A stretch of DNA of 33,583 nt from positions 1 to 33,583 of the forward strand of contig JAKUNN010000003.1 of NCBI GenBank assembly GCA_022451885.1, given 5' to 3'. Under the pieces are notes generated by a model that saw only the letters and a program-made list of their open reading frames with translations, searched no databases and had not been told where the DNA came from. The DNA comes from Dehalococcoidia bacterium (GTDB lineage Bacteria > Chloroflexota > Dehalococcoidia > Tepidiformales > Tepidiformaceae). Shown here piece by piece: positions 2,605-19,516 of the stretch. Every line of letters starts with the position of its first letter. The first letter of the stretch is position 1. A program made the translations under genes and the position numbers.

Positions 2605-2633
2605 TTGGCGATTCGTCAACAAAATTCTAAAAT
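2605..2633 (+). promoter_or_regulatory. Putative sigma-70-type promoter for the tandem monooxygenase genes
   Basis: TTGGCG at 2605-2610 matches the -35 consensus at four of six positions, and TAAAAT at 2628-2633 matches the -10 consensus at five of six. The spacer is exactly 17 bases. Transcription would start near 2640, giving a leader of about 20 bases that contains only the strong ribosome binding site of the next gene. This placement argues against the in-frame TTG at 2605 as a start codon, because it would lie inside the -35 box. Confidence 0.45.
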
Positions 2634-2650
2634 AAGTCTCCAAACAATTC

Positions 2651-2656
2651 GGAGGG
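2651..2656 (+). promoter_or_regulatory. Ribosome binding site fixing the start at 2662
   Basis: GGAGGG lies five bases before the ATG at 2662. It is a near-perfect Shine-Dalgarno sequence and selects this start over the in-frame TTG 57 bases upstream. The resulting N-terminus, MVQQEIL, also lines up with that of the neighbouring paralogue, MVRQELK. Confidence 0.85.
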
Positions 2657-2661
2657 AAGCA

Positions 2662-3885
2662 ATGGTCCAACAAGAAATTCTTGATAAGAGTGCGGAATTA
2701 TCAAAAACACCGATTCTAGATCGTATAGAAAATATTAAAGAAGAGCTTACTGAAATTGGTAATGAAGCTCAAAAGATCAGACGGCTACCTGACTGGGGTA
2801 GTAATACTCTCGCCGATGCCGGGCTCTATCGGCATACTATGCCAACCGAGTTAGGTGGCGAAGATATGCTTGCCCGAAAACAAATCGAAGTTATTGAAGC
2901 AACGGCAGCAATCGATGGTTCAGTGGGTTGGTGTGTACAAATTAATTCAGAAATTAACGCATTAATATTACGCCAAATGGAACTAGGCCTAGCCCATGAA
3001 ATTGCTGATGATTGGTACATGCTTGTTTGCTCCGGCCTAGGAAGTCCTAATGGTCCATTCCCGGGAAGAGAAGCGACTCGAGCAGGTAGCGGATGGGATG
3101 TTAAATATCAAGGAGCATTCGCGAGCGGAAGTTATAACGCAACTTGGAATTTAATTCTCACTGGTGAGACTATGGACCCAGCTACAGGGAAGCAAGCAGA
3201 AGCAGCTTTTATGGTGCCTCGAGGTGAATTTGAGGTTGTAGATACCTGGAATATGGCAGGATTAAGGGGTTCAGGTAGTCATGATGTTCGTATAGTCGGA
3301 CATATACCCGAAGAACACACCCTGCCTCAAGATGCTCTTGCCTCGACAACAACATGGGAAAATCCAACCCATCGTAATCCAGCACAAGTTCCTTATAACA
3401 AGGCTGCAGTAGCACTTGGCATTGCACGAGGAGCGATGGATGAGTTTATAAAACTTGCGACCCATAAAACCCCATGGATGTCTGGTTCCCTGTTAAAAGA
3501 CCAGCCCGAAGCATACATTCGTTTAGCTGAAAATGAGGCAAATTGGATGGCAGCACGTGCTTTCTTGATGGAAGCACAAGAGCAAATTGAAGAAAACTTA
3601 GGCCCTCTGGAAGGTGGAAGAAGTGTACCAGAGTGGGAATTTGGAAGACGGGGGTTACTCTCTTCAACACATGCTGCTCAAGCAAGCCGAGTGATTGTCG
3701 ATAACATTCATAACCTTGCAGGAACAACTGCCAGCCGAATGAATCATCCACTAGAACGCAAGTTGCGCGATTCACATCAGGCAGCTGCACACGGTGGTGT
3801 TAGCTGGCGTCATTATGGTGCTCTTGGCAAAACAATGCTAGGTGAGGATCCACCTGAAACATATCGAACGGTAAAACGAGCCTAG
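2662..3885 (+). CDS. Acyl-CoA-dehydrogenase-fold flavin monooxygenase, paralogue 1
   Basis: The 407-residue product belongs to the acyl-CoA dehydrogenase superfamily and most resembles the oxygenase components of two-component (group D) flavin monooxygenases such as HsaA or the C2 component of hydroxyphenylacetate hydroxylase. Conserved blocks shared with the two paralogues in this window are GSVGWCVQINSEIN, SGSYNATW, DTWNMAGLRGSGSHDVR, FIKLATHKTPW, and near the end HPLERKLRDSHQAAAHGG. The RD-x-H-x5-H pattern lies where this family keeps its catalytic histidine. Such enzymes use reduced flavin and O2 to hydroxylate aromatic or related substrates in the cytoplasm and need a separate flavin reductase. 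An acyl-CoA dehydrogenase role is less likely but cannot be excluded. The second paralogue follows after two bases, so the two are co-transcribed. Confidence 0.82.
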   Translation: MVQQEILDKSAELSKTPILDRIENIKEELTEIGNEAQKIRRLPDWGSNTLADAGLYRHTMPTELGGEDMLARKQIEVIEATAAIDGSVGWCVQINSEINALILRQMELGLAHEIADDWYMLVCSGLGSPNGPFPGREATRAGSGWDVKYQGAFASGSYNATWNLILTGETMDPATGKQAEAAFMVPRGEFEVVDTWNMAGLRGSGSHDVRIVGHIPEEHTLPQDALASTTTWENPTHRNPAQVPYNKAAVALGIARGAMDEFIKLATHKTPWMSGSLLKDQPEAYIRLAENEANWMAARAFLMEAQEQIEENLGPLEGGRSVPEWEFGRRGLLSSTHAAQASRVIVDNIHNLAGTTASRMNHPLERKLRDSHQAAAHGGVSWRHYGALGKTMLGEDPPETYRTVKRA

Positions 3886-3887
3886 GA

Positions 3888-5114
3888 GTGGTTCGACAAG
3901 AACTGAAGGACCGCATCGCCACCCTTCAGAAAACTCCGATGCTTGATCGCATTGAAAATATGCGGGAAATGCTCGTTTCTGCTGCTGATGAAGCGCAAGA
4001 AATTCGACGCCTACCGGAATGGGCAGCAAAAGAAATGATTGATGCTGGCCTATATCGCTTTGCAATGCCTGCAGAACTCGCAGGTGAGGATTTTCTTGCA
4101 AAAGAACAAATTGAAACACTCGAAGCAACAGCAGCAATTGATGGCTCAATTGGCTGGTGTGTTTCAATTAATTCTGAGATCAATTCGTTAGTACTTAGAA
4201 AAATACCCTTAGACCTTGCAGAAAAAATCTGCGATGACTGGAACATGCTAGTCTGCTCAGGCCAAGGTTATGCAAATGGCCCCAATCCTGGTCGTGAAGC
4301 ACATCGTGAAGGAGAAGGATGGCAACTGACCTACCAAGGCTCCTTCGCAAGCGGCTGTCATAACGCAACTTATGCTATGGTCTTCGATTCTGTTGGAGTA
4401 CCTGATAAAACAACAGGGGAAACCGCCGAAGCATCATGGGTGATTCCTCAGGGTGAATTCGAAATCATCGATACTTGGGACATGGCAGGACTCCGTGGAA
4501 CCGGTAGTCATGATGTTCGTATTGAGCAATATGTTCCACCAGAACATGTTTTACCACTTGATGCATTAGATTCATCAGATTTATGGGAAAACCCAACATA
4601 TCGAAATCCTGCACAAGTCCCTTACAACAAAGGAGCCGTCGGTCTCGGAATAGCCCGAGGTGTCATGGACGAATTCATAAAACTTGCGACACATAAAACT
4701 CCCTGGGGTTCGGGAACATTGTTGAAAGAGCAACCAGAGGCGTACATCCGTATCGGTGAAGCTGAGGCAACCTACCAAGCAGCCCGCGCATTTCTAATTA
4801 ATAGCCAAGAACGAGTCGAGGAATATTTAGGTCCCTTAAAAGGTGGTCACTCAGAACCATCTACAGAACTTGCACAATTGGCACTTCTCTCGTCTACTCA
4901 TGCAGCACAAGCAATGAGGCATGTAGTAGATACTATCCACAATACCGCCGGAACAACTGCGAGTCGTATGAGCCATCCATTAGAACGAAAACTACGTGAT
5001 GCACACCAAGCGGCCTCACACGGTGCAATAAGTTATCGCAATTATGGCAATGTCGGAAAAACGTTACTTGGGGAAGAACCTCCACAACTTTTAACCAAAG
5101 TTAATCGAGCCTAA
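3888..5114 (+). CDS. Acyl-CoA-dehydrogenase-fold flavin monooxygenase, paralogue 2
   Basis: This 408-residue protein is collinear with paralogue 1 and shares all of its conserved blocks: GSIGWCVSINSEIN, SGCHNATY, DTWDMAGLRGTGSHDVR, NPAQVPYNKGAVGLGIARG, and HPLERKLRDAHQAASHG. It probably acts as an oxygenase component taking reduced flavin from a reductase. The start is GTG at 3888, two bases after the stop of paralogue 1. The only purine-rich motif, AGGAG at 3884-3888, overlaps the start codon and is too close to work as a normal ribosome binding site, so translation is probably coupled to the upstream gene. Alignment of MVRQEL with MVQQEI supports the start. The tandem pair looks like a local duplication, and the two subunits could form a hetero-oligomer. 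Confidence 0.82.
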   Translation: MVRQELKDRIATLQKTPMLDRIENMREMLVSAADEAQEIRRLPEWAAKEMIDAGLYRFAMPAELAGEDFLAKEQIETLEATAAIDGSIGWCVSINSEINSLVLRKIPLDLAEKICDDWNMLVCSGQGYANGPNPGREAHREGEGWQLTYQGSFASGCHNATYAMVFDSVGVPDKTTGETAEASWVIPQGEFEIIDTWDMAGLRGTGSHDVRIEQYVPPEHVLPLDALDSSDLWENPTYRNPAQVPYNKGAVGLGIARGVMDEFIKLATHKTPWGSGTLLKEQPEAYIRIGEAEATYQAARAFLINSQERVEEYLGPLKGGHSEPSTELAQLALLSSTHAAQAMRHVVDTIHNTAGTTASRMSHPLERKLRDAHQAASHGAISYRNYGNVGKTLLGEEPPQLLTKVNRA

Positions 5115-5140: not shown

Positions 5141-6328
5141 TTAACAAGCCTCAAAAAGAGATGCGAACCCTTGTCCACCACCAACACACATTGTAACAAT
5201 CCCATAACGCTTTCCAGAACGTCTTAACTGGCGTATTAAAGAACCAGTCATTCGAGAACCAGTCATACCAAATGGATGACCAATAGAAATGGAACCACCC
5301 ATCGGATTCAGCTTTTCATTAGGAATTTGAAGAACACGCTGACAATGTAAAAGCTGTGCAGCAAATGCCTCATTTAACTCAATAATGTCAATGTCATTCA
5401 TGGTTAAACCATGCCTCTTAAGAAGCTTTGGGACTGCCACAACTGGGCCAATGCCCATCTCTTCAGGACCACAACCTGCTACAGCACTGCCCCGATATAT
5501 AGCCAACGGTTCAATATTAAGCTGCTTAGCACGTTCCGAACTCATGAGTAATGTTGCTGAAGCTCCATCGGAAAGCTGTGAAGCATTTCCTGCCGTTACC
5601 GTCCCATCCTCTTTAAAAACAGGCTTTAATTTTTGTAACCCCTCCAATGTAGTTGAAGGTCGATTACACTCATCTTGATCAACCACCCATTCTTCCTCAA
5701 AGGGATCGCCATCTTTCGGCTGCACGTTTCTAGTTACAGACATAGGTGCTATTTCTTCAGCTATAAAACCCTGCTCAACTGCTGCTGCATATCGCTGTTG
5801 GCTTTGCAAAGAATAAACATCCTGATCCTCTCGTGAAACATCGTATCTTTCGGCAACAATCTCGGCAGTAATTCCCATTGGATAGTAGAGACCTGGAAAA
5901 CGTTCACGAGCACGTTTATGGACCATACGTGTTTTATTTTGTGACCCATCCTGAATCATTGTGATTGTCTCAACACCACCACCAATCGCTACATCAGCAC
6001 CATTATTAATAATCTGATCCGCAGCCATCATCACCGCCTGAGAACCTGACGAGCAAAATCTGTTCACTGTTGTAGCAGCAGCACTTTGCGGGATACCGGC
6101 ATTCATTGATGCAATCCGAGCCATATTCATACCCATACACCCTTCGGGATGCCCACAGCCAATAATGACATCTTCAATTTCAGACGGATCAAGTTCTGGA
6201 TGCTCTTCTATAACTGCCTCCAAGACATGGGATGTGTAATCAACTGGCTCCGTTATATTGAAAGAACCTCGGTGCGCTTTTGTTAAACCTGTTCGTAAAC
6301 TACCTACAATTACTGCTTCTCTTGCCAT
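5141..6328 (-). CDS. Thiolase (acetyl-CoA acyltransferase)
   Basis: The 395-residue product is a full-length thiolase with all expected catalytic residues: nucleophilic Cys92 in VNRFCSSGSQA, the NEAFA motif at 319-323, His351 in GGSISIGHPFGMTGSRM, and Cys381 in TMCVGGGQG. Numbering is close to that of classical biosynthetic thiolases. It condenses two acetyl-CoA units or cleaves 3-oxoacyl-CoA in the cytoplasm; sequence alone does not separate the two directions. The start at 6328 is chosen because GGGGGA lies six bases upstream and MAREAVIVG is the usual thiolase N-terminus. A frame extension to 6385 lacks such support. The gene converges on the monooxygenase pair with a 26-base gap and could process ring-cleavage or beta-oxidation products. 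Confidence 0.93.
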   Translation of the reverse strand: MAREAVIVGSLRTGLTKAHRGSFNITEPVDYTSHVLEAVIEEHPELDPSEIEDVIIGCGHPEGCMGMNMARIASMNAGIPQSAAATTVNRFCSSGSQAVMMAADQIINNGADVAIGGGVETITMIQDGSQNKTRMVHKRARERFPGLYYPMGITAEIVAERYDVSREDQDVYSLQSQQRYAAAVEQGFIAEEIAPMSVTRNVQPKDGDPFEEEWVVDQDECNRPSTTLEGLQKLKPVFKEDGTVTAGNASQLSDGASATLLMSSERAKQLNIEPLAIYRGSAVAGCGPEEMGIGPVVAVPKLLKRHGLTMNDIDIIELNEAFAAQLLHCQRVLQIPNEKLNPMGGSISIGHPFGMTGSRMTGSLIRQLRRSGKRYGIVTMCVGGGQGFASLFEAC

Positions 6329-6399
6329 AAAATCCCCCTTTTCGACTAGCAGCTTCATAGTATGACACTTGCGAAAGGTCAACAATGACTATCAATAGA

Positions 6400-7043: not shown

Positions 7044-7616
7044 ATGGCAGATCCAACAAAAGACCATGAAATAGTTTCGTGGTATCCGCTAGACGATGAT
7101 GTACGAGAGGAACTGCTTACAACAGCTAGGGAAGCTGTTCTAAATTGGACAACAAAAGATGGCTGGGCTGTGGGTGTTATGCACGGTTATTACTGGGGAA
7201 AAGGTTCGATCTGGATGACTGCCGCTTCACATCGACACCGAATGTCTGCATTGCGACGTGATCCTCGCTGTTCTGTAGTGATAACAAGTACCGGTACCCA
7301 TTTAGGCCTCGGTAAAACACTTACAATTAAGGGCCGCTGCATCATGCATGAGGACCGAGAAACCAAAGATTGGTTCTATCATCAACTAGCATGGCGCCCC
7401 GGTGCAGATCCTGAACAAGCAGCAAATTTTGAGAAAATGCTCGACTCTCCTCTACGGGTTGTAATGGAAATAGTTCCAGAAAAATGGATAACCTTTGACG
7501 GAGCAAAAATGGCTAAGGATACCGCGGGAATACTGACTGATGAAGAGCGTGGACCAATGCTTTCAAGTGATGCTGAACGCCTGCCTACTGAGATGGCAAA
7601 AAGAGGAATTGACTAA
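7044..7616 (+). CDS. PPOX-type FMN/F420-binding split-barrel protein 2
   Basis: This 190-residue protein has the split-barrel signature WTTKDGWAVGVMHGYYWGKGSIWMTA, followed by HRHRMSALRRDPRCSVVITS and the strand LTIKGRCIMHED. It is related to PPOX protein 1 only at fold level. An AAGGAAG ribosome binding site lies seven bases before the ATG. The gene is divergent from PPOX protein 1, with a 164-base region between them that probably holds both promoters. The final four bases overlap the convergent membrane-protein gene. Its cofactor (FMN, F420 or haem) and substrate are not visible in the sequence. Like its neighbour, it is a candidate flavin-handling partner for the monooxygenases at 2662-5114. 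Confidence 0.78.
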   Translation: MADPTKDHEIVSWYPLDDDVREELLTTAREAVLNWTTKDGWAVGVMHGYYWGKGSIWMTAASHRHRMSALRRDPRCSVVITSTGTHLGLGKTLTIKGRCIMHEDRETKDWFYHQLAWRPGADPEQAANFEKMLDSPLRVVMEIVPEKWITFDGAKMAKDTAGILTDEERGPMLSSDAERLPTEMAKRGID

Positions 7617-8074
7617 CTTCGTTGTTCCTCACCGACATCGTTTTCCACTTGTTGTCGAACCGCAAATAGACCAAGCTTTTCATACGAATCTTGATAACTA
7701 CTGCCTAAACGCGCATTTCGTATTTTTTGCAATTCTTGTGTGAATGCGACCATTCGCACATGCGCATACTGATTCGTACTATGCCGAGGCAAAACATAGG
7801 TTTGCCGAAAATATTTATTTGAACTTCTACCATAAGGTGAGAATCCATCAAGGCGCTTCTCAAGTCTTTTAATTGCTATAACACAAATTATAGCAATTAA
7901 AAGGAGCAGTCCCCCAATGCCAAGTAGAAGAGCAAAAAATGTATCGGTATGAAAGGCGACAATCCCAGTAATTCCAAGTACTAATGACACACTACAGATC
8001 ACAAATAGCAAAGAAACACAGGTTACAAAAAACACAGTTAAAGATCTCAAAACAAGCGGGCTTGAAAAAGTCAT
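7613..8074 (-). CDS. Two-helix membrane protein of unknown function
   Basis: The 153-residue product has two hydrophobic segments (about residues 10-40 and 46-67), a basic stop-transfer stretch (KRLEKRL) and an 80-residue soluble C-terminal part rich in Arg, Gln and Tyr. A GGAAGG ribosome binding site precedes the ATG, which supports it as a real gene. I do not recognise the family. It lies between PPOX protein 2 (convergent, 4-base overlap) and ctaB (co-directional, 65 bases downstream), so it may be transcribed with genes upstream of neither. Its coding sequence contains a perfect 16-bp inverted repeat where the second helix meets the basic stretch (see the repeat entry at 7866-7903). Confidence 0.6.
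   Translation of the reverse strand: MTFSSPLVLRSLTVFFVTCVSLLFVICSVSLVLGITGIVAFHTDTFFALLLGIGGLLLLIAIICVIAIKRLEKRLDGFSPYGRSSNKYFRQTYVLPRHSTNQYAHVRMVAFTQELQKIRNARLGSSYQDSYEKLGLFAVRQQVENDVGEEQRS
7866..7903. repeat. Perfect 16-bp inverted repeat inside a membrane-protein gene
   Basis: The arms at 7866-7881 and 7888-7903 are exact reverse complements (CTTTTAATTGCTATAA on the left) separated by the six bases CACAAA. The repeat lies wholly inside the gene at 7613-8074 and encodes the end of its second membrane helix. Stems this long are not expected by chance in a window of this size. Confidence 0.9.
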
Positions 8075-10089: not shown

Positions 10090-11883
10090 ATGCAAAAAAT
10101 AAAGTCGACCAATAATTTTCAAGAATCAAATGAGTGGGTTTCAGCCTCAGCCACCCAAAATTATGTTCTTAACAACCCGCTTATTGATTGGCTTGATTTA
10201 TACGGTAAAGAAAATGGATTTGTAAAAGACCAAATCGACAAGAGAATTGACTTTCAAGTCGCCTTTTCAGAGCAAGAAAAAAAATTTGAAAGTGCAGTAC
10301 TACAACACTTAGAGACTCTTGCCAAAGTAATCAAAATTGGATCTCCTAACACAAAGAAAGATGAGAGTTCGGTAATACAAGCAACCCGTACAGCTGTGCG
10401 AGAAGGAGCAGAAATTATTTTTCAAGGTTTGCTTGCCGACCCAGATTCAAAAACCTATGGATCTCCGGATTTTTTGTTCCGCTCAGATATACTCGCCAGA
10501 ATATTTCCTTCCACCATTTCAAAAAGAGAAGCGAATTATGCTGCGCCAGGTTTACCAAAATCAAAATGGCATTACTTAGTGGTAAACACCAAATTTATTA
10601 CTCTAGAAGTCCGTAGTGATGGAACTCTAAGTCATAGCCAAAATTTTAAAGCATTGAAAGTACAAGCATTTATTTCTAATCAAGCATTAGGGAAAATTCA
10701 AGGTTATGCACCCTCATCTGCTTTTTTACTCGGACGAGGGTGGAAACGGAGATCCTCAAGGAAAGAACTCTCGAGTTTCAATGCAATGGACAAACTGGGA
10801 CGCATAATTATTGACCAAGAAACTGATGAAGGGAAAGAACTTGCGGCCCTAGCAAGTGATGCAACTACTTGGATCCGGCGTCTCTGTAAAGATGGAAAAA
10901 TGTGGAGTGTCCAGCCAACGCCATCTACAGAAGAACTTAGGGTAAACGCAAAGGCTTCACAGCATTATTGGTCAAAAGCAGTGAAAAAAATTCTAGAGCA
11001 AACAGAAGACCTAACCACTCTTTTTCGAGTAAGTGCAAAAAATCGTTCCCTAGCCAATAGTAGAGGAATAGAAAGATGGAGCGATCCATTAGTTAATGCT
11101 GAAAATGTTGGGATTTCTGGTGATGTTCAAGTACCGAGATTCAATGCATTGTTAGATATCAACCGAGATCAGTCTGTAAAATCTGTGAACCCAGAACAAA
11201 TCCTAGCTAATCGATCCATGTGGCACGAAGAACCTAAACTTGAATTCTATGTTGATTTCGAAATCATTAACACACTTAATTTAAATTTTTCGACTTTCCC
11301 CAACATCATAGGAAACGAACTTATTTTTATGATTGGTTGCGGACATTTGGAGAATGGAAACTGGCAATTTAAAAGCTTTATTGCAGACCGATTAACGGAA
11401 GCTGCTGAAGGCAATATGATCGACAAGTGGTTTCGCCATATGAACAAAACATATGAACGTATTAAACCAGAAGCAAACCCACAAATTATCCATTGGTCTT
11501 CTGCTGAGGTTAATTGGCTTGATACCGGAGCCAATTCAGCAAGAAAACGACACCTCGGCTACAGTTGGCCTCAGCTAAAATGGTTTGATTTCCTCGAATT
11601 GGTTATCAAAGCTGAGCCTGTCGCGATCAGGGGATCGCACAATTTTGGATTGAAATCAGTTACAAAAGCTCTTAATAACTTACATCTAATAAACCTAGAT
11701 TGGCCTGAAGAGCCGACTGATGGTCTTGGAGCAATGGTTGCAGCTTGGTCATGTGAGCAAGAGGCTCAAAAAAAACAATGTAACCTAGCCGACTTAAAGC
11801 TCATGGAAGAAATCAAGACATATAACGAAGTTGACTGCTTAGCCATGAAAGAAATTGTCTTCTACTTACGAAAAAACCATTAA
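10090..11883 (+). CDS. RecB-like nuclease with C-terminal RNase H-like DEDD exonuclease domain
   Basis: This 597-residue protein resembles the TM0106/RecB-like nuclease group. The N-terminal half has a PD-(D/E)XK-like arrangement: GAEIIFQGLLADP, then GSPDFLFRSD with Asp127, then LVVNTKFITLEV with Lys168. The position that normally carries Asp/Glu two residues before the lysine is Asn166, so this active site may be impaired. The C-terminal half has an RNase H-like exonuclease pattern: FYVDFEIIN (Asp389, Glu391), a central HWSSAEVNW region, GSHNFGLKSVTKAL, and YNEVDC (Asp582). No helicase motifs and no iron-sulfur cysteine cluster are present, which argues against Cas4 or AddB. A DNA or RNA processing role is likely. 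The gene stands alone, divergent from ctaA and convergent with the ABM gene. Confidence 0.72.
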   Translation: MQKIKSTNNFQESNEWVSASATQNYVLNNPLIDWLDLYGKENGFVKDQIDKRIDFQVAFSEQEKKFESAVLQHLETLAKVIKIGSPNTKKDESSVIQATRTAVREGAEIIFQGLLADPDSKTYGSPDFLFRSDILARIFPSTISKREANYAAPGLPKSKWHYLVVNTKFITLEVRSDGTLSHSQNFKALKVQAFISNQALGKIQGYAPSSAFLLGRGWKRRSSRKELSSFNAMDKLGRIIIDQETDEGKELAALASDATTWIRRLCKDGKMWSVQPTPSTEELRVNAKASQHYWSKAVKKILEQTEDLTTLFRVSAKNRSLANSRGIERWSDPLVNAENVGISGDVQVPRFNALLDINRDQSVKSVNPEQILANRSMWHEEPKLEFYVDFEIINTLNLNFSTFPNIIGNELIFMIGCGHLENGNWQFKSFIADRLTEAAEGNMIDKWFRHMNKTYERIKPEANPQIIHWSSAEVNWLDTGANSARKRHLGYSWPQLKWFDFLELVIKAEPVAIRGSHNFGLKSVTKALNNLHLINLDWPEEPTDGLGAMVAAWSCEQEAQKKQCNLADLKLMEEIKTYNEVDCLAMKEIVFYLRKNH

Positions 11884-11927
11884 TTATGAAAAGAAAAGTA
11901 GCTCTCTTCTACTACAATTAATTTCCT

Positions 11928-12269
11928 TTAAGCTGTAAAAAAATCTGCTCGGGGTGTTCCTGTTGGATCATACACAGGTTCCTCTAAATCCACTCGAAAC
12001 TTTGAAATTTCCGAACCGGTAGTCCCACAAGCGCCCAAGTGAGCCCCCATATCTTTATAGGGTGCTTCGGCAAAATGGAATGCTAGAGAATCCTCATCAT
12101 CCCATAATTCATAAACCCAGATACGATTTGGAACCTGAACGTCTGCAGTCCATGTATAAGCACGACAACCTGGTTCTGCTAACGCTGCATCGATATAAGG
12201 TTTTGCATCTATAAGTCCCTGATCTCGCTTAATTGGATCAAGTTCAATCCAGCCTGCAATTACAATCAT
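11928..12269 (-). CDS. ABM-fold (antibiotic biosynthesis monooxygenase-like) protein 1
   Basis: The 113-residue product is a one-domain ferredoxin-like ABM protein: first strand MIVIAGWIELDP, a helix, AEPGCRAYTWT, then NRIWVYELWDDEDSLAFH and the acidic-hydrophobic C-terminal strand. ABM proteins include cofactor-independent monooxygenases of aromatic compounds and haem-degrading enzymes; many have no known substrate. GGGAG lies five to six bases before the ATG. It follows the Zn-ribbon gene at 12309 by 39 bases on the same strand, so the pair is probably one transcript. A second ABM protein with a helical insertion occurs at 15109, next to a paralogue of the same Zn-ribbon protein. The end is convergent with the nuclease gene. 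Confidence 0.82.
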   Translation of the reverse strand: MIVIAGWIELDPIKRDQGLIDAKPYIDAALAEPGCRAYTWTADVQVPNRIWVYELWDDEDSLAFHFAEAPYKDMGAHLGACGTTGSEISKFRVDLEEPVYDPTGTPRADFFTA

Positions 12270-12308
12270 TTTTTACTCCCTTGGATCATTCTAGAAAAAA
12301 TATTATCT

Positions 12309-13214
12309 TCACACCTTTTCTTCGTCTTTACAATTTAAACAATGTGGAACATTTTCACCATTTGGAGCTACACTCGGAACTTCCCTAGTGCAATTTGTTT
12401 CATCCGATTCATTGCCAGCACATAGTTTATAAGTAATTCCATTAAATAAATCTCGTGCAACTAAAGCCCATAGCCAACCAGCTAAACAAAGAGGTTGTAA
12501 ATTCCACACAACCATTGACATCTCAGTGTTTTGAGAAATATCTAAACTTGTATATTTCCTTAACTTTTGTGCAACTAAGCCTGTTGCTTCGGTTATATCA
12601 TCACCGACTACTTTGCAAAGATTTTGTCTTAATTCTTCTGCTTTTTTATCTTTTGCTACGACAGCTGCTTCAATCGATCTTCTAGCAAAAATCTGTACAC
12701 TCATAGTTTCAACTTGAGTCATTGAATGAAGGGTGTTCGCCTCATTTTGTATTAATTCTATTTCACGCAGTGCTCCTACTACGTAGGCAATTTCTCCGAA
12801 TTCCGTAAACCAATCTTTTAATGTCGGCTTTTTAGATGAAGACGTAACCAATTCTCCATATTCACGAATAAAATCAACCACAAATTCACTGAACCTGGCA
12901 ATCTTTACATCCTCACTCAAATCAGAAAAACTATCACTTATTCTTCTATGAAGATCCCAACATTCCAAAACCCAAGGATCGAAAAGGTCACCCGATATCT
13001 TCTCAATGTACAAATGCTGTTTCCAGAATTGGTCTTCCACTGAATTCTCGAGGTGTAAAAGATTCGTAACCGCCCAGCCTGAGGTAGAAAGCCTGGTATC
13101 TGATCGTGCTACTTTCGCTTTACGTAAAAGATCTTTATCGCTACCCACAGCAGGAACAAATTCAACTAAAGAAAAGCGATCTTGCCGAAACCCTTCAACT
13201 ATCTCCACACGCAT
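12309..13214 (-). CDS. Putative Zn-ribbon protein of unknown function, paralogue A
   Basis: The 301-residue product is mostly helical and ends in a cysteine cluster (C-x9-C, then C-x2-C) in the stretch from KLCAGN to CLNCKDEEKV. Just before it is LCLAGWLWALVARDLFNGITY, an arrangement seen in proteins whose C-terminal treble-clef or CGNR-like zinc ribbon follows a hydrophobic helix. It is a paralogue of the gene at 15620: both begin with an IV-x-GFRQ motif, both have FDPW-x5-W-x-x-HRRI, and both end with LAGW-x-WAL and the cysteine cluster. This copy has 59 more residues between GFRQ and FDPW. The role is unknown; nucleic-acid binding is inferred from the zinc-ribbon pattern only. A perfect 18-bp inverted repeat lies 43 bases upstream of the ATG. 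Confidence 0.6.
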   Translation of the reverse strand: MRVEIVEGFRQDRFSLVEFVPAVGSDKDLLRKAKVARSDTRLSTSGWAVTNLLHLENSVEDQFWKQHLYIEKISGDLFDPWVLECWDLHRRISDSFSDLSEDVKIARFSEFVVDFIREYGELVTSSSKKPTLKDWFTEFGEIAYVVGALREIELIQNEANTLHSMTQVETMSVQIFARRSIEAAVVAKDKKAEELRQNLCKVVGDDITEATGLVAQKLRKYTSLDISQNTEMSMVVWNLQPLCLAGWLWALVARDLFNGITYKLCAGNESDETNCTREVPSVAPNGENVPHCLNCKDEEKV

Positions 13215-13257
13215 ACAATAGTCTTGCTTATTAAGATGATCTTGAAAAGTAGCTGCA

Positions 13258-13298
13258 ATATACGTTATTTTTAAATAATATTTAAAAATAACGTATAT
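13258..13298. promoter_or_regulatory. Perfect 18-bp inverted repeat in a divergent promoter region
   Basis: The arms at 13258-13275 and 13281-13298 are exact reverse complements separated by TAATA. The inner part reads TTTAAA-TAATA-TTTAAA and each arm carries an ACGT step. It sits between the Zn-ribbon gene (minus, start 13214) and the VOC gene (plus, start 13341), where no transcript ends, so it is not a normal terminator. It could be an operator for a dimeric regulator or a leader hairpin for either gene. Confidence 0.75.
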
Positions 13299-13340
13299 AT
13301 ATTACTTGTGCTGCCTAGATAAACCGAGTAGTTTCCAGAC

Positions 13341-13796
13341 ATGGTTAGATACGACGATCTTTTTCACCTAGGGATTATTGTCCCCGATATTCAAAAAGGC
13401 ATGCAAGACCTCTCAAATCGCTTCGGTGTCACTTGGCCAAGAAAACCACGTATTTCACAAACCCTAATACGCACAAAAAATGGTACCTCCCCCATTACAA
13501 TCAGCGGTGTGTATTCTACCGAAGGGCCGCCATGGTTTGAGGTTTTCGAAGCTGTCCCAGGAAGCCTTTGGTCAACACAAGCTTCAAATATTCACCATAT
13601 GGGTTTTTTCGTAGATAGCATAGACGACGAAATTGAACGCCTCGTTGCAGAAGGAAACGAACTTGAAATGGAAGCAGTCGATGCAAATGGGAATCGCATC
13701 AGCGGCTGCTACCTAAATACAGACCTCAATATAAGATTAGAAATAGTTGATGCATCGATAAGAGAAAGTTTAATAGAAAGGATCAAAAGCCCTTAG
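13341..13796 (+). CDS. VOC-superfamily (glyoxalase/dioxygenase-like) protein
   Basis: The 151-residue protein has two beta-alpha-beta-beta-beta modules of the vicinal oxygen chelate fold. The metal ligands expected for this superfamily appear in order: His in DDLFHLGIIVPD, Glu in WFEVFEAVPGS, His in IHHMGFFVDSID, and Glu in NIRLEIVD. Members include glyoxalase I, extradiol dioxygenases, methylmalonyl-CoA epimerase and resistance proteins. The spacing here suits the Glyoxalase_4/epimerase-like subgroup, but the reaction cannot be named. The gene starts 42 bases after the inverted repeat and precedes the third flavin monooxygenase by 29 bases on the same strand, so it probably acts in the same pathway, for example on an oxygenated product. 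No clear ribosome binding site was found. Confidence 0.82.
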   Translation: MVRYDDLFHLGIIVPDIQKGMQDLSNRFGVTWPRKPRISQTLIRTKNGTSPITISGVYSTEGPPWFEVFEAVPGSLWSTQASNIHHMGFFVDSIDDEIERLVAEGNELEMEAVDANGNRISGCYLNTDLNIRLEIVDASIRESLIERIKSP

Positions 13797-13825
13797 GGTA
13801 GTACTAGTAAAATTTGGATGCTTTT

Positions 13826-15073
13826 ATGAAACAGGAACTTTTTGATCAGATAGAAGTTTTAAAGGGGAAAACTCCAGCTGAGCGTATACACGATATGTAC
13901 GACCTGTTACAAGAGGCAGGTGATGAGGCTCAAAAAATTAGACACCTGCCTGAATGGGCAGCTAAAGAAATGGTCGATGCCGGACTTTATCGATTTGCTC
14001 TTCCCTCCGAATTAGCGGGGGAAGACCTCCGTGCACGTGATCAAATTGAGGCAGTTGAAGCCGCTTCGGCAATCGATGGTTCAGTCGGTTGGTGTATTCA
14101 AATTAATTCTGAAATTAATGCGATTGCACTTCGTCACATAGATCGAAAATTAGCAGAAAAAGTTTTTGGCGATTGGCATGTCATTATTTCCTCGGGTGGC
14201 GGCCCACCCAATGGTCCAAATCCAGGAAAGAAAGCAACGAAAGAAAAAAATGGATGGAACATAACCTATCAAGGATCCTTTGCAAGTGGCTGCCATAATG
14301 CAACTTGGGACTTTGTCTATGATCACAATCTTGGCTGGGAAAACTCACCCACTGGGGCTGCTGAGGCCGCATGGCTGGTGCCAAAAGCTGAATTTGAAAT
14401 CATTGATACGTGGGATATGGCTGGATTAAGGGGTTCTGGCAGTCATGATGTACGTATGGAGAACCTCCACATCCCTTCTGAACACACCGTTCCATATAAC
14501 TGGAAGGAACAAGAGATCTTGTGGGAAAATCCAACCTATCGTAATCCATGCCATGCGTACTACAACAAGGCAGCAGTTGCTCTGGGTGTTGCCCGGGGAA
14601 CGATGGATGAATTCGTAAAACTTGCAACTCATAAGACCCCTTGGGGCTCAGGTACTCTGCTAAAAGATCAACCAGAAGCCTATATGCGTCTTGCGGAAAG
14701 CGAAGCAAATTGGATGGCAGCCCGTGCTTTCCTAATCGAAAGCCAAGAAGCTATCGAAGAAGATTTAGGACCATTATCAGATAAAAAAGAGAACGCAAAC
14801 TTTGAAATTCAGCGCCGTGGATTTTTGGCGTCAACACATGCTGCGCAAGCCTGCCGTCATATTGTTGATACTATCCACAATACTTCTGGAACAACTGCCA
14901 GTCGTATGAACCATCCACTAGAACGCAAGTTACGTGATGCACACCAAGCAGCATCGCACGCTCTAATTAGTTGGCGACAATATGGCAACTGGGGAAAAAC
15001 TTTTTTGGGTGGCGAACCCCCTGGATTCGGACTCAATCCCCTAAAAGCCAAAAACAAACCTGCAATAAAATAA
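13826..15073 (+). CDS. Acyl-CoA-dehydrogenase-fold flavin monooxygenase, paralogue 3
   Basis: The 415-residue protein is collinear with the tandem pair at 2662-5114 and keeps every conserved block: GSVGWCIQINSEIN, SGCHNATW, DTWDMAGLRGSGSHDVR, YYNKAAVALGVARG, LATHKTPWGSG, and HPLERKLRDAHQAASHA. It differs from them by a short insertion after SGCHNATW and by a C-terminal tail (LNPLKAKNKPAIK). It is probably another oxygenase component of a two-component flavin monooxygenase. The ATG at 13826 gives MKQELFDQ, which aligns with the paralogues; the in-frame TTG at 13814 is the alternative. It lies between the VOC gene and the second ABM gene, all co-directional, which suggests one oxidative pathway. 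No dedicated flavin reductase is adjacent. Confidence 0.82.
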   Translation: MKQELFDQIEVLKGKTPAERIHDMYDLLQEAGDEAQKIRHLPEWAAKEMVDAGLYRFALPSELAGEDLRARDQIEAVEAASAIDGSVGWCIQINSEINAIALRHIDRKLAEKVFGDWHVIISSGGGPPNGPNPGKKATKEKNGWNITYQGSFASGCHNATWDFVYDHNLGWENSPTGAAEAAWLVPKAEFEIIDTWDMAGLRGSGSHDVRMENLHIPSEHTVPYNWKEQEILWENPTYRNPCHAYYNKAAVALGVARGTMDEFVKLATHKTPWGSGTLLKDQPEAYMRLAESEANWMAARAFLIESQEAIEEDLGPLSDKKENANFEIQRRGFLASTHAAQACRHIVDTIHNTSGTTASRMNHPLERKLRDAHQAASHALISWRQYGNWGKTFLGGEPPGFGLNPLKAKNKPAIK

Positions 15074-15108
15074 CACGAACCAATTGAAAGCATGTTTAAT
15101 CCAAAATA

Positions 15109-15618
15109 ATGATCATTTTGACAGGAAGGGTAGAGCAAACGATTTCTAATAAGCTAGCCCAAGCAGTACATTTAGAAAATGAAGCGAACACACTATTTTC
15201 GGAAGCAAGCCGCTTAGAAAAAGAAATTGATCGATACCGACCAATTGGCGCCACATATCCGTTCGACGAAAAATATGCGGAGGCAAAAGAAATGAAAATA
15301 TTAGGCAACGACAAGCGATCAGAGGCACAAACGATTCGTTTAACTATTACTAAAATACGAAACAATTTGGTACATGAATTACAAAAGTATGTTCACGAAA
15401 CAAACACTAGTCCTGGTTGCCAGACTTTCGTAGTAACACCCGATAATTTTCACGAAGATCGTATATGGATATATGGTCTTTGGCAGAATGAACTAACTCT
15501 TGAAAATTATCTAGCTGGCCCTTTTCTTAAAATGAAACAGTACCTTAAGAAAAATGGATTTCAAAAAATAGAAATTTCAAAAGTACCCTCAAATTTGCAA
15601 GCACCTACATCACACTAA
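15109..15618 (+). CDS. ABM-like protein 2 with a helical insertion
   Basis: The 169-residue product is homologous to the ABM protein at 11928. Both begin with the same first strand (MIILTGRVE against MIVIAGWIE) and share the block PGC-x8 to 12-RIW(V/I)Y-x-LW. In this protein the PGC is at residues 102-104 rather than 33-35, so about 69 residues have been inserted between the first strand and the first helix. The insertion is rich in Glu, Lys, Ala and Leu (NEANTLFSEASRLEKEID and AKEMKILGNDKRSEAQT) and is predicted by eye to form an antiparallel helical hairpin or coiled coil. Such an insertion is unusual for this small fold. The gene follows the third monooxygenase by 35 bases and is convergent with the second Zn-ribbon gene. 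Confidence 0.65.
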   Translation: MIILTGRVEQTISNKLAQAVHLENEANTLFSEASRLEKEIDRYRPIGATYPFDEKYAEAKEMKILGNDKRSEAQTIRLTITKIRNNLVHELQKYVHETNTSPGCQTFVVTPDNFHEDRIWIYGLWQNELTLENYLAGPFLKMKQYLKKNGFQKIEISKVPSNLQAPTSH

Positions 15619-15619
15619 A

Positions 15620-16309
15620 TCATAAATTCGAAGAGGCCTTTTTTCTACTCGCACGTTTTTGACAAGTCCCAGAACAATGCAAGATCATTTTTCCGGATGG
15701 AGTCAAGTTAGGAAGTTCGCGACCACAAATTTCAAAACCGGAGCATTTTGTGTAAGTTATATTTTCTACTACATCACGGCATATTAACGCCCAAACCCAA
15801 CCTGCTAAAGAGGTTGGCCTTAAAGCCATAGTTCGATTACTTGACGTCTTTAACCTCTTTACAAAATCAACCGTAGTGTACTGCTGCAGTTTTAAACTAA
15901 TAAGTGAATTGGAAACTTGAGAACTTTTATAAGAAAAAAAGGGCATTGCTTCTTGTACCTCTGCATCTAACAAAACCTGACCATCACCATCATCTATTAA
16001 TTGAATCGCCCTTGAGATATCACGCCACTCTACCAAAAACTTAGAACCTACTACAGCAGCATCAATTATAGACTTTTCTGAACCAACTCTAGAAAAGCTT
16101 GAATTTATTTCTTCAGAATTAAATAAATCACCGTATAACTTGTTGAAATTTCTCATTCTTGTAGAAACCTCTTTTGTCGTTAGGTGTACTGGCAATTCAC
16201 GATACCAACCAGCAATACGCCTATGAAAATCCCAATTTTGACTTTCCCACGGATCAAAATATTCACTATCAGGTATAGATTGCCTAAAACCACGAACAAT
16301 AAAAACCAT
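15620..16309 (-). CDS. Putative Zn-ribbon protein of unknown function, paralogue B
   Basis: This 229-residue protein is a shorter paralogue of the one at 12309. Shared elements are the N-terminal IVRGFRQ, FDPWESQNWDFHRRI, YTTVDF in the middle, PTSLAGWVWALICRDV, and the terminal cluster. Here the cluster reads C-x5-C-G-R-E and then C-S-G-T-C-Q-K-R-A-S-R-K-K, which is close to the common C-x3-C-x-x-x-A-x-R-x zinc-ribbon ending with a basic tail. A DNA- or RNA-binding function is inferred from this and is not established. The ATG lies only 10 bases from a 40-bp perfect palindrome, with GGTGA between them as a weak ribosome binding site. The gene is co-directional with the Rieske oxygenase upstream and convergent with ABM protein 2. 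Confidence 0.62.
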   Translation of the reverse strand: MVFIVRGFRQSIPDSEYFDPWESQNWDFHRRIAGWYRELPVHLTTKEVSTRMRNFNKLYGDLFNSEEINSSFSRVGSEKSIIDAAVVGSKFLVEWRDISRAIQLIDDGDGQVLLDAEVQEAMPFFSYKSSQVSNSLISLKLQQYTTVDFVKRLKTSSNRTMALRPTSLAGWVWALICRDVVENITYTKCSGFEICGRELPNLTPSGKMILHCSGTCQKRASRKKASSNL

Positions 16310-16319
16310 GCATCACCAA

Positions 16320-16359
16320 AAATAGTCTGAGTTTAAAGTACTTTAAACTCAGACTATTT
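16320..16359. promoter_or_regulatory. 40-bp perfect palindrome next to the start of Zn-ribbon paralogue B
   Basis: All 20 bases on each side of the centre (16339/16340) are reverse complements; the core is TTTAAA-GTAC-TTTAAA. In the minus direction it lies 41 bases after the Rieske oxygenase stop and 10 bases before the ATG at 16309, and it is followed by a five-T run. It may therefore be a terminator for the oxygenase gene, an attenuator, or an operator for the Zn-ribbon gene. A second, overlapping palindrome (CTATTTAATTAAATAG, 16354-16369) shares its outer arm, so two alternative stems are possible. Confidence 0.85.
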
Positions 16360-16368
16360 AATTAAATA

Positions 16369-16395
16369 GCTTTTGTCGAGCAACTCAACAAAAGC
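16369..16395 (-). terminator. Hairpin just after the Rieske oxygenase stop codon
   Basis: GCTTTTGT (16369-16376) pairs with ACAAAAGC (16388-16395); after one mismatch, GAG pairs with CTC around a three-base loop. In the minus direction the hairpin starts five bases after the stop codon at 16401 and is followed by an AT-rich stretch rather than a clean T run. It is a plausible weak terminator or mRNA-stabilising hairpin. Confidence 0.5.
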
Positions 16396-16400
16396 CACAG

Positions 16401-18041
16401 CTACTCAATACTCAACCATTCGTTATAAAGGTTATGGAAATGGCGCACCTTTGACTCTGCATATGAAGAGAGAAAAATAGTAGGTTGTGCTTTAGCCTTC
16501 ACACCTTTTTGAATCTTTGGCAAATTATACGTGTCTTGGTTTAAAACTCTTGCAAGTTCACCCATTTCTTCAGCATCTGTAAATGGCTCATCTGGACCCA
16601 GCCAATGAATCGGCACTGGTGGTGGTTTCGGCTGTCCTTCAGGCCAAGGCACCAGGTACATAACTTCCATAATACTCATTGCAGGATCATCACCATATGG
16701 ACGGAATCTATACACAATCCGACTAAAAGCACCCCACGGATGAAAATTAGGGAACAGGTTATTGAAATATCCATCAACTAATTCTGCATCACAGAATTCA
16801 TCTGCCTTACCACCCATGACAGGCCGCAATGCTTCTCTAATGTTATCTGCTCCAGCCTTCCTACCGGCAAAAATTTCTTCCAATGGAGGATAAATAGCAC
16901 GCTGAGGACTAGTTCCACCTGAACCAGTTGTCGTAGCGCGACACCAATTGCCAAAAGCGTCATAACTCATATTCGAACCATCACCACCACCAACCATCGA
17001 TTGTGGATGAGTCGCCATTACGTGATAGCCCTCACAAAAGGCTTCCTGGGTCAACTTCCAGTTAGCACGAACAATCTTTGCCACATGACTAACTTTGACA
17101 CGATCCTCGAAATGCCAACGTTCATAATGCTCTGGCATTGATCCTAAAAAGTCCTCCAACGGCTCACAGTCTGGATCAGGATTTATGAAAACGAAACCAC
17201 CCCATGTTCCAACCTGAGCTTCAACTAAATGAGCAGCTTCTTCACGAACCTCTGGGAAATCCCATTCAGAAGGGATTTCACGCAGTTGGCCATCTATTTC
17301 CCAAGACCAACCATGGAACGGACAACGGAATTCTGTTGCACACTTGCCGTCGTATTCACGAAGCTGACGACCCCTATGCAAACAAACATTGTTATAAGCC
17401 TTAAACGTGGTCTCATCTACACGAACAACGATGAACGACAAATGAGCGATATCATAGACAATATAGTCACCAACCTCAGGGATATCATCTTCACGACACG
17501 CAAATTGCCAAACACGTTTCCATAACTTCTCCACCTCAAGATCATGGAATTCCTGGGAATAGAATCTGTCGGTCGAAACTTTCATAACTCCACCTGGCAA
17601 AGGTGAATCTTCTTTTAATGTGTCTGGAACCAACTCAGGACGGCTGTCTCCCGCAACAAGTTCCTGAAACGTAGGGCCAGCTGACCGCATTCCATTTTCT
17701 GTCATTCGACCTGGATCACCTACATACTTCGCAACTTGAGGCTGGCCTTCATTTCTGAACATGACCCTTCCTGTTGCAGTACGTCTAGGATCACGTACTG
17801 TTCCGTGATAGCTATCATTAGCTTTGTCCCCAGCTTCTTTTGCAGCTTCTTCTAAGGTAGAAGCCAATTGAGGTCCGCCTATAAACTGTAAAAAGTGTAG
17901 ATCTGGAGTCAATATGTCACCTTCAACCCAACCAGTCTCCCAATGGAAAACACCTGCCGAATCATCTTTGGTAATCTTTACCAGGCCATCACCTAGTTCT
18001 TCATAAAGAGCCCCACTAATTGGATGTGTATCTGAACGCAT
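16401..18041 (-). CDS. Rieske non-haem iron oxygenase, alpha subunit, with N-terminal extension
   Basis: The 546-residue product has a Rieske domain with Cys220-x-His222 (NNVCLHRGRQL) and Cys240-x-x-His243 (FRCPFHGWSW), then the mononuclear iron site NWKLTQEAFCEGYHVMATH with His340 and His345, and Glu337 at the bridging position. Such enzymes dihydroxylate, hydroxylate or demethylate aromatic and alicyclic substrates using electrons from a ferredoxin and reductase. In typical members the first Rieske cysteine is near residue 80 to 100, so this protein carries about 130 extra N-terminal residues of unknown fold. The start at 18041 is fixed by GGAGG six bases upstream; the frame extends ten codons further without support. 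No beta subunit gene is adjacent. It follows the amidase gene by 71 bases on the same strand. Confidence 0.9.
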   Translation of the reverse strand: MRSDTHPISGALYEELGDGLVKITKDDSAGVFHWETGWVEGDILTPDLHFLQFIGGPQLASTLEEAAKEAGDKANDSYHGTVRDPRRTATGRVMFRNEGQPQVAKYVGDPGRMTENGMRSAGPTFQELVAGDSRPELVPDTLKEDSPLPGGVMKVSTDRFYSQEFHDLEVEKLWKRVWQFACREDDIPEVGDYIVYDIAHLSFIVVRVDETTFKAYNNVCLHRGRQLREYDGKCATEFRCPFHGWSWEIDGQLREIPSEWDFPEVREEAAHLVEAQVGTWGGFVFINPDPDCEPLEDFLGSMPEHYERWHFEDRVKVSHVAKIVRANWKLTQEAFCEGYHVMATHPQSMVGGGDGSNMSYDAFGNWCRATTTGSGGTSPQRAIYPPLEEIFAGRKAGADNIREALRPVMGGKADEFCDAELVDGYFNNLFPNFHPWGAFSRIVYRFRPYGDDPAMSIMEVMYLVPWPEGQPKPPPVPIHWLGPDEPFTDAEEMGELARVLNQDTYNLPKIQKGVKAKAQPTIFLSSYAESKVRHFHNLYNEWLSIE

Positions 18042-18047
18042 TGCCAA

Positions 18048-18052
18048 CCTCC
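18048..18052 (-). promoter_or_regulatory. Ribosome binding site fixing the Rieske oxygenase start
   Basis: In the minus direction GGAGG lies six bases before the ATG at 18041. It selects this start, MRSDTHPISG, over an upstream in-frame ATG at 18071 that has no such site. Confidence 0.8.
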
Positions 18053-18112
18053 GAACATAATTGCTAGTCAAGATATCTTAAGAGAAACATTTTTATTTGT
18101 CGTTAAAATTTC

Positions 18113-19516
18113 TTATAAATCCGGCCAAACATCAGACCATGGCCGCAAATTTTCATAATCATGAGAAGCTCGTAAAACAATATCATCCCGGAAGCGCGGA
18201 CCAACAATCTGTAAACCACAAGGCAATCCAGTATCGCTAAATCCTGCTCGCACAGATGCAGCTGGGTGTCCAGTAAAATTAAATGGGTATGTAAAAGCTA
18301 TCGCGTTAAACCGCTCTCCATCCAATTCTGTTGGAATTGGGCCTTCTGCGAGAAATGCTTCCGTAGGCAAGGTAGGCGTGAGTAGAAGATCATAATTTTC
18401 GAACAATTGGCTCGTCCATGCTATAAGTTCACCTCTCAATTGCAAAAAATTCGCAAAGTCATCCGGACCTACATCCAGTGCCCGATCGAGTGCTTTTGTA
18501 TATCGATCTGTAAACAAGTCGTGGTTTTTCCCGTAATTCTCCCATTCCAAACCTAATGATTGGAAGGCTGAAACACGACCCCACCAACCACCCATTTCAG
18601 GAATAACATCTGAAGTTTCCTCAACCTCATGGCCAAGATCGGAAAACACTTCAAGTGCACGATAAAACTCTCTTCGAACATCACTCTGAAGACGAGTTAC
18701 TCCAAGTGTTTCATTGAAAGCAATTTTTAAAGGAGGAAGCGATTCTTTTAAGGAATTTTCATAAGAGAAATTGTGTGCTGGTAAACTGGTCGGGTCCGCA
18801 TTATGCGGACCCGCAACTATATCCAAATATCGGGCAGCGTCTTTGACCGATCTTGTCAATGGCCCGTAGCAGGATATAGCAAGCCATGGGTGCCGAGCAC
18901 GTGGACCTATAGGAACTCGGCCTTGTGAAGGCTTTAAACCATATAAGCCGCTATAACACGCCGGTATCCGAATGCTTCCACCACCGTCAGTTGCAGTCGC
19001 CAGTGGAAGCATAGCTGAAGCCAGAGCAGCCGCAGAGCCACCACTCGAACCGCCAGGTGTTTTTGTCTCATCCCACGGATTACGAGTCGGCCCAAAAAGA
19101 TCATTATCCGTAAATGGGATATGCCCAAATTCTGGAGTATTTGTTTTACCTACCAGAATTGCACCAGAACGCTTTATTCTCTCGACTAAAACATCATCAA
19201 AATCAACAATGTTATCTCGATATAAACGTGACCCCTTTGTCGTAGCAAAACCTTTAGCATTTTCAAGGTCTTTTACAGCAAAGGGTAGACCACCAAACGG
19301 ACCTAGATCATGGCCATGAGCGATCTGCTCCGTCTGTCGACTCGCTTCTTTAAGCGCCATTTCCTCATCCATCGCTACAATTGCATTAAATCTTGGATTT
19401 AAATCCTTAATTCGCTCAAGTGTCCATTCCATCAATTCAGTAGGGGAAATCTCTTTCGAACGAATTAAATCCGCAATTTCTATTGCTGAAGAAAAATAAT
19501 TGAAAGACAGAGGCAT
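18113..19516 (-). CDS. Amidase-signature hydrolase
   Basis: The 467-residue protein contains the amidase signature triad: Lys82 in LPFAVKD, the cis-serine Ser157 in PGGSSGGS, and the nucleophile Ser181 in TDGGGSIRIPA. Such enzymes hydrolyse amides or some esters in the cytoplasm. GatA, the Glu-tRNA amidotransferase subunit, shares the fold, but no gatB or gatC is adjacent and the C-terminal half lacks the GatA pattern, so a catabolic amidase is more likely. The start overlaps a ribosome binding site, GGGAGGG, that lies in the last codons of the MoaD-like gene two bases upstream, so the two are translationally coupled. The coding sequence contains a GC-rich perfect inverted repeat at 18791-18813. 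An oxygenase follows, so the amidase may act on a substrate or product of that oxygenase. Confidence 0.92.
   Translation of the reverse strand: MPLSFNYFSSAIEIADLIRSKEISPTELMEWTLERIKDLNPRFNAIVAMDEEMALKEASRQTEQIAHGHDLGPFGGLPFAVKDLENAKGFATTKGSRLYRDNIVDFDDVLVERIKRSGAILVGKTNTPEFGHIPFTDNDLFGPTRNPWDETKTPGGSSGGSAAALASAMLPLATATDGGGSIRIPACYSGLYGLKPSQGRVPIGPRARHPWLAISCYGPLTRSVKDAARYLDIVAGPHNADPTSLPAHNFSYENSLKESLPPLKIAFNETLGVTRLQSDVRREFYRALEVFSDLGHEVEETSDVIPEMGGWWGRVSAFQSLGLEWENYGKNHDLFTDRYTKALDRALDVGPDDFANFLQLRGELIAWTSQLFENYDLLLTPTLPTEAFLAEGPIPTELDGERFNAIAFTYPFNFTGHPAASVRAGFSDTGLPCGLQIVGPRFRDDIVLRASHDYENLRPWSDVWPDL
18791..18813. repeat. GC-rich 11-bp inverted repeat inside the amidase gene
   Basis: CGGGTCCGCAT at 18791-18801 and ATGCGGACCCG at 18803-18813 are perfect reverse complements around a single T. 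The GC content stands out against the AT-rich surroundings. It encodes part of a variable loop (AGPHNADPTS). Confidence 0.85.

Follow-up and report, generated by a model that had tools for sequence, protein, structure and literature searches.

Two long perfect palindromes and a lineage-restricted zinc-finger family in a probable catabolic gene patch of a Dehalococcoidia bacterium

Introduction

The closest described counterparts of the zinc-finger proteins reported here are those of the ABATE/CGNR group (PF07336/PF11706), with which they share a C-terminal four-cysteine finger of the form C-x4/5-C ... C-x3-C. In Jann_2411 this finger is a treble clef of the CGNR type (C147/C152/C168/C172), and the protein has been put forward as a ligand-responsive regulator of transcription (PMC2954205). 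The cysteine spacing of Jann_2411 equals that of our family to within one residue, and its last ligand reads CQNR where that of one of our proteins, ZN2, reads CQKR. Our family differs from ABATE/CGNR in having a longer and divergent N-terminal part, and the basic helix of the finger has been lost in several of its members, among them ZN1, the other zinc-finger protein of the locus.

The oxidative genes around ZN1 and ZN2 also have described relatives. HsaA and HpaH are the oxygenase subunits of two-component flavin monooxygenases; beside the related gene of this locus (13814-15073) no reductase gene was identified. Expansions of catabolic enzymes have been reported for SAR202 (PMC6946804), and likewise a Rieske oxygenase, a luciferase-like monooxygenase and four HsaA-like paralogues occur together here in one small genome. 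In a text search of that paper, neither transcription nor zinc nor regulators turned up. The genome analysed here (1.43 Mb, 87% complete) is a compact Dehalococcoidia genome, from a Chloroflexota bacterium of marine type, and, judging by its size and gene content, probably of the SAR202 type. An initial annotation had presented the locus as a candidate new system, built from a duplicated module of ABM-fold and zinc-ribbon genes, in which each zinc-ribbon protein might bind a long palindrome upstream of its own gene.

Results

A patch of oxidative genes containing two zinc-finger genes

The locus lies in a stretch of 33,583 nucleotides analysed as a whole, referred to below as the window. All the open reading frames claimed initially are present at the stated coordinates, and the gene order is ABM1(-) ZN1(-) / VOC(+) monooxygenase(+) ABM2(+) / ZN2(-) Rieske oxygenase(-), with the features listed in Table 1. 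A search with PADLOC gave no match to a defence system, and no Rfam element was found across positions 11000-19000 at E <= 1. Together the VOC, HsaA-like monooxygenase, ABM and Rieske oxygenase genes probably form a catabolic patch for the degradation of organic matter, with ZN1 and ZN2 embedded in it.

Table 1. Positions in the window of the genes and inverted repeats of the locus
Feature	Position	Strand	Basis and remarks
ABM1, ABM-fold protein, 113 aa	11928..12269	-	PF03992 E 2.1e-9, above cut-off; 3' of ZN1, same strand
ZN1, zinc-finger family member, 301 aa, N-terminal extension	12309..13214	-	27% identity to ZN2; Cys pattern
Palindrome 1 (I1), 41 bp, perfect	13258..13298	.	Inverted-repeat scan; probable divergent operator
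VOC-superfamily protein, 151 aa; opens divergent operon	13341..13796	+	PF13669 Glyoxalase_4 E 3e-9
HsaA/HpaH-like monooxygenase, acyl-CoA dehydrogenase fold, 419 aa	13814..15073	+	PF08028 E 8.1e-27; NF045629 E 6.6e-37
ABM2, ABM-like protein, 169 aa	15109..15618	+	31% to ABM1 over 85 aa; PF03992 E 0.0082
ZN2, zinc-finger family member, 229 aa	15620..16309	-	ZN1 homology; Cys pattern
Palindrome 2 (I2), 40 bp, perfect	16320..16359	.	Inverted-repeat scan; RNA fold
Second hairpin, inverted repeat I8, immediately 3' of Rieske stop codon	16369..16395	-	Repeat scan and fold
Rieske ring-hydroxylating oxygenase alpha subunit, 556 aa	16401..18071	-	PF00848 E 6.6e-17, PF00355 E 5e-15

ABM1 clearly belongs to the ABM family and exceeds the PF03992 gathering score (37.9 versus 23.1 bits), and ABM2, which taken by itself falls under the curated cut-off with 16.7 bits, is ABM-like through its alignment to ABM1 (E 9e-14), its single match in the genome. 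About 65 residues are inserted behind the first strand of ABM2, and no relatives of this protein were found in phage records. The VOC gene was borne out by its Glyoxalase_4 match. The gene initially called a flavin monooxygenase is closest to HsaA and HpaH and has the acyl-CoA dehydrogenase fold, but its product scores far under the equivalog cut-offs of both, with 127.2 bits against 450 for HsaA (NF045629) and E 6.2e-24 for the HpaH type (NF045920). Its listed start is a TTG codon, and an in-frame ATG follows 12 bp further on. Two of the four HsaA-like paralogues scored in the genome stand in tandem at window positions 2605-5114, next to genes for a Rieske ferredoxin-like protein (1933-2328) and a thiolase (5141-6385); tandem pairs of a similar kind also occur in genomes of the same family. 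The 597-aa product of window positions 10090-11883 bears no more than a weak likeness to the RNase_H_2 (E 0.044) and TM0106 RecB-like nuclease (E 8e-4) models.

The two palindromes share a rare layout and sit in different contexts

Both long inverted repeats upstream of the zinc-finger genes were confirmed as 100% complementary, and they are the two longest among the four inverted repeats reported in the window. Palindrome 1 has 20-nt arms about a 1-nt centre, and palindrome 2 has 20-nt arms and no gap. In 407 kb of sampled stretches of the genome, used as background, there are eight perfect palindromes with arms of at least 15 nt and a gap of at most 2, and palindromes 1 and 2 are the longest of these. 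The two are thus beyond chance, yet not unique in the genome. Among the long palindromes elsewhere, a CIRCE-like repeat before hrcA (L038) and a repeat before dnaJ (L045) are probable operators, while those between the convergent moaA and groEL genes and before ABC permease genes are probable 3' or intercistronic stem-loops. The repeat at L045 4266-4296 is a perfect palindrome, CTAAACTTGATAATACTATTATCAAGTTTAG, with a MerR-type regulator gene following dnaJ, and may be a HAIR-like HspR operator.

The layouts initially described, TTTAAA-N5-TTTAAA in palindrome 1 and TTTAAA-N4-TTTAAA in palindrome 2, are exact. Such TTTAAA-N4/5-TTTAAA sites number three in the whole genome, and the one outside the locus (on contig C29) is not a long palindrome. 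Since both sites are palindromic, the doubling of TTTAAA within each is automatic. The arms of the two palindromes are alike at 11 of 20 letters, with a common 6-mer at equal offset, a resemblance to which post hoc shuffling of these AT-rich arms assigns a probability of 0.02-0.11.

Palindrome 1 lies 43 bp from the start codon of ZN1 and 42 bp from that of VOC, and there is no T-run on either side of it. Because it is centred between these divergent starts, we read it as a putative operator that would couple ZN1 to the VOC-monooxygenase-ABM2 operon, and its placement, like that of an operator serving both a regulator gene and a divergently transcribed catabolic operon, supports the initial interpretation in this respect. 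A dimeric regulator would be expected to bind it, with ZN1 the nearest candidate though not a strong one.

Palindrome 2 was correctly placed upstream of ZN2, whose start is 10 bp away, but the Rieske oxygenase gene ending at 16401 had been overlooked, and the palindrome lies 41 bp beyond the stop codon of that gene. Read on the Rieske strand (-), it forms an 18-bp stem with a GUAC loop followed by TTTTT, and the gap between the Rieske gene and ZN2 is filled by two consecutive hairpins (-40.4 kcal/mol, z -7.5). The output of a consensus terminator scan does not contain palindrome 2. Its main role would be that of a stem-loop at the 3' end of the Rieske gene, either a terminator or an mRNA stabiliser, in tandem with the second hairpin, and this reading is more likely than one as an operator. 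Since palindrome 2 ends so close to the start of ZN2, it may have an added operator role for that gene.

ZN1 and ZN2 belong to an unnamed family with a four-cysteine finger

ZN1 and ZN2 are paralogues, as initially proposed (E 2e-24 over 219 aa), and their zinc-finger character is upheld by the four-cysteine pattern. The description of a duplicated module is overstated, in that a sister relationship of ZN1 and ZN2 within the family, and with it a local duplication, is not supported, nor is it rejected (AU p 0.32). The cysteines of ZN2 are arranged as C189-x5-C195, x16, C212-x3-C216, and are followed by the basic tail QKRASRKKASSNL. In ZN1 the last pair reads C-x2-C, the C-terminus is HCLNCKDEEKV and the net charge from the third cysteine onward is -1; this protein lacks the basic tail that a DNA-binding finger would be expected to have. 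The family is divided in this respect: a basic tail after the last ligand is present in ZN2, L020 and L022 (net charge +4 to +5) and absent from ZN1, L023, L024 and L025 (0 to -2). Across 16 aligned members from seven genomes the four cysteines are invariant, as are one histidine, one glycine and one tryptophan; L025, which is outside this alignment, has lost the last cysteine.

Neither ZN1 nor ZN2 has a convincing match in Pfam or NCBIfam, and no Pfam match to PF11706 or PF07336 was obtained for ZN1, ZN2 or their relatives. A search of the genome with PF11706 reached at best 14.7 bits (cut-off 24, E 0.05), and hhalign against three CGNR sequences aligned the cysteine region with a probability of 0.4% and E 0.16. 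The best PDB relative found by profile had an E of 0.028, which we judged to be chance, and an AlphaFold model, with a mean pLDDT of 41.6, was of too low quality for further use. Homology to CGNR is therefore not statistically shown by either the family model or the profile comparison, and we would describe these proteins as resembling ABATE/CGNR in cysteine spacing, with those members that keep the basic tail possibly binding nucleic acid.

A profile of 13 members matched 20 stretches of the host genome, corresponding to about 17 scattered genes, and with the same profile none was found in the 37 other genomes of the host's family. A scan of 393 genomes from the class added eight with one to four matches each, mostly in a single family (f2). 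In genome contigs a first scan found no relatives, and a second scan found two loci of a distant relative, in records named UBA2979 (Dehalococcoidia) and RS381 (Chloroflexi). The family is thus unnamed, large and lineage-restricted, and is in neither Pfam nor NCBIfam.

Palindromes and ABM neighbours do not follow the family

For 16 family members of the host genome and 341 other genes, we took the highest-scoring inverted repeat within the 150 bp preceding the gene. ZN1 and ZN2 each scored 20 and the remaining 14 members 4-7, the latter being indistinguishable from the other genes (median 5 versus 5, p 0.48). A score of at least 15 was reached by 2 of the 16 members and by 3 of the 341 other genes, so that the members are still enriched (Fisher p 0.017); of the three other genes one is VOC, which scores through palindrome 1 itself. 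A palindrome as a signature of the family was consequently rejected, and as 14 tested sister genes are without one, the pairing of ZN genes with palindromes looks local.

Searches with phmmer, using ABM1 and ABM2 as queries, found no ABM gene next to a family member at about 30 other loci. One locus of the host genome (L096, 3982-6069, on G000:C52) has a member flanked by NIPSNAP and Dabb genes and then by a VOC gene that is a close paralogue of the one in the window (E 1.8e-57). NIPSNAP and Dabb proteins are small barrels whose fold is related to that of ABM. The C52 locus suggests a partial echo of the gene set in the window, and to that extent the expectation of ABM neighbours had some basis. 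Elsewhere the neighbours have no common theme and include genes for a cytochrome P450, a CaiB-type transferase, a response regulator, a translation initiation factor, a dihydroxy-acid dehydratase, a copper amine oxidase and a Mur ligase, those lacking a Pfam call having been named from sequence. Members also occur in two Chloroflexota genomes (L128 3806-6603 and L129 5488-6294), at L128 23 bp behind the copper amine oxidase gene.

With so few palindromes and so few ABM neighbours among the homologues, the idea that these features travel with the family is largely refuted. The locus as a candidate new system is, for the most part, left without support.

Discussion

We lean towards a reading, drawn from sequence, in which palindrome 1 is an operator, palindrome 2 forms a stem-loop 3' of the Rieske gene and the ZN genes come from an expanded family; the two palindromes are then probably two different things. 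In favour of this, similar palindromes in the genome fall into both classes, operators and 3' stem-loops. Against it count the terminator scan that left out palindrome 2, the enrichment of palindromes upstream of family members, and the fact that two of the three TTTAAA-N4/5-TTTAAA sites are palindromes 1 and 2, which hints at one common binder. In the model of the initial annotation, each ZN paralogue would regulate its own gene through its own palindrome, the TTTAAA core being common to both and the outer arms differing between the paralogues, which would let the oxidative genes be controlled separately. Both palindromes are directly upstream of ZN genes, TTTAAA is equally placed in both arms in a layout that is rare in the genome, and a four-cysteine finger, with a basic tail in ZN2, would suit the task. 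We nevertheless consider autoregulation improbable, since 14 of the 16 paralogues have no palindrome at all, ZN1 lacks the basic tail, palindrome 2 sits in a stem-loop context behind the Rieske gene and the arms show weak similarity after correction for composition. The claim that the same kind of site is found at both genes is weakened by two of these points, the fit of palindrome 2 to a Rieske stem-loop and the missing tail of ZN1.

The regulator could instead be encoded elsewhere, with palindrome 1, and possibly palindrome 2, as the operator of an unlinked catabolic regulator and the ZN genes as regulated bystanders of some other function. This we hold to be rather unlikely: palindrome 1 does sit between divergent genes, and most family members stand singly, without palindromes, among unrelated housekeeping or catabolic genes, but the genome has no further long palindrome of the TTTAAA layout, the C29 site not being one. 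It is also conceivable, though very unlikely, that both palindromes are RNA or DNA stems without a dedicated protein, arising as terminators, sites of mRNA processing or products of replication template-switching. Long perfect palindromes do occur at convergent gene ends and within genes, as at window positions 7866-7903 (16-nt arms and a 6-nt loop, within the open reading frame 7613-8074 on the minus strand) and at L027 1060-1107 (21-nt arms and a 6-nt loop, in the 3' part of the open reading frame 410-1225, near a convergent gene). Palindrome 1, however, is equidistant from two divergent start codons, where no transcript end is needed.

The pairing of zinc-finger genes with palindromes is by itself a modest observation; what is odder, and of more lasting interest, is that the zinc-finger family has expanded in this lineage. 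A far-reaching and doubtful extension would make its roughly 17 divergent, treble-clef-like copies local ligand-responsive regulators that tune catabolic patches, some of them with palindromic operators of their own. If the family is regulatory, its members would be unnamed regulators in bacteria to which the oxidation of recalcitrant marine organic matter is attributed, and whose catabolic control is little known.
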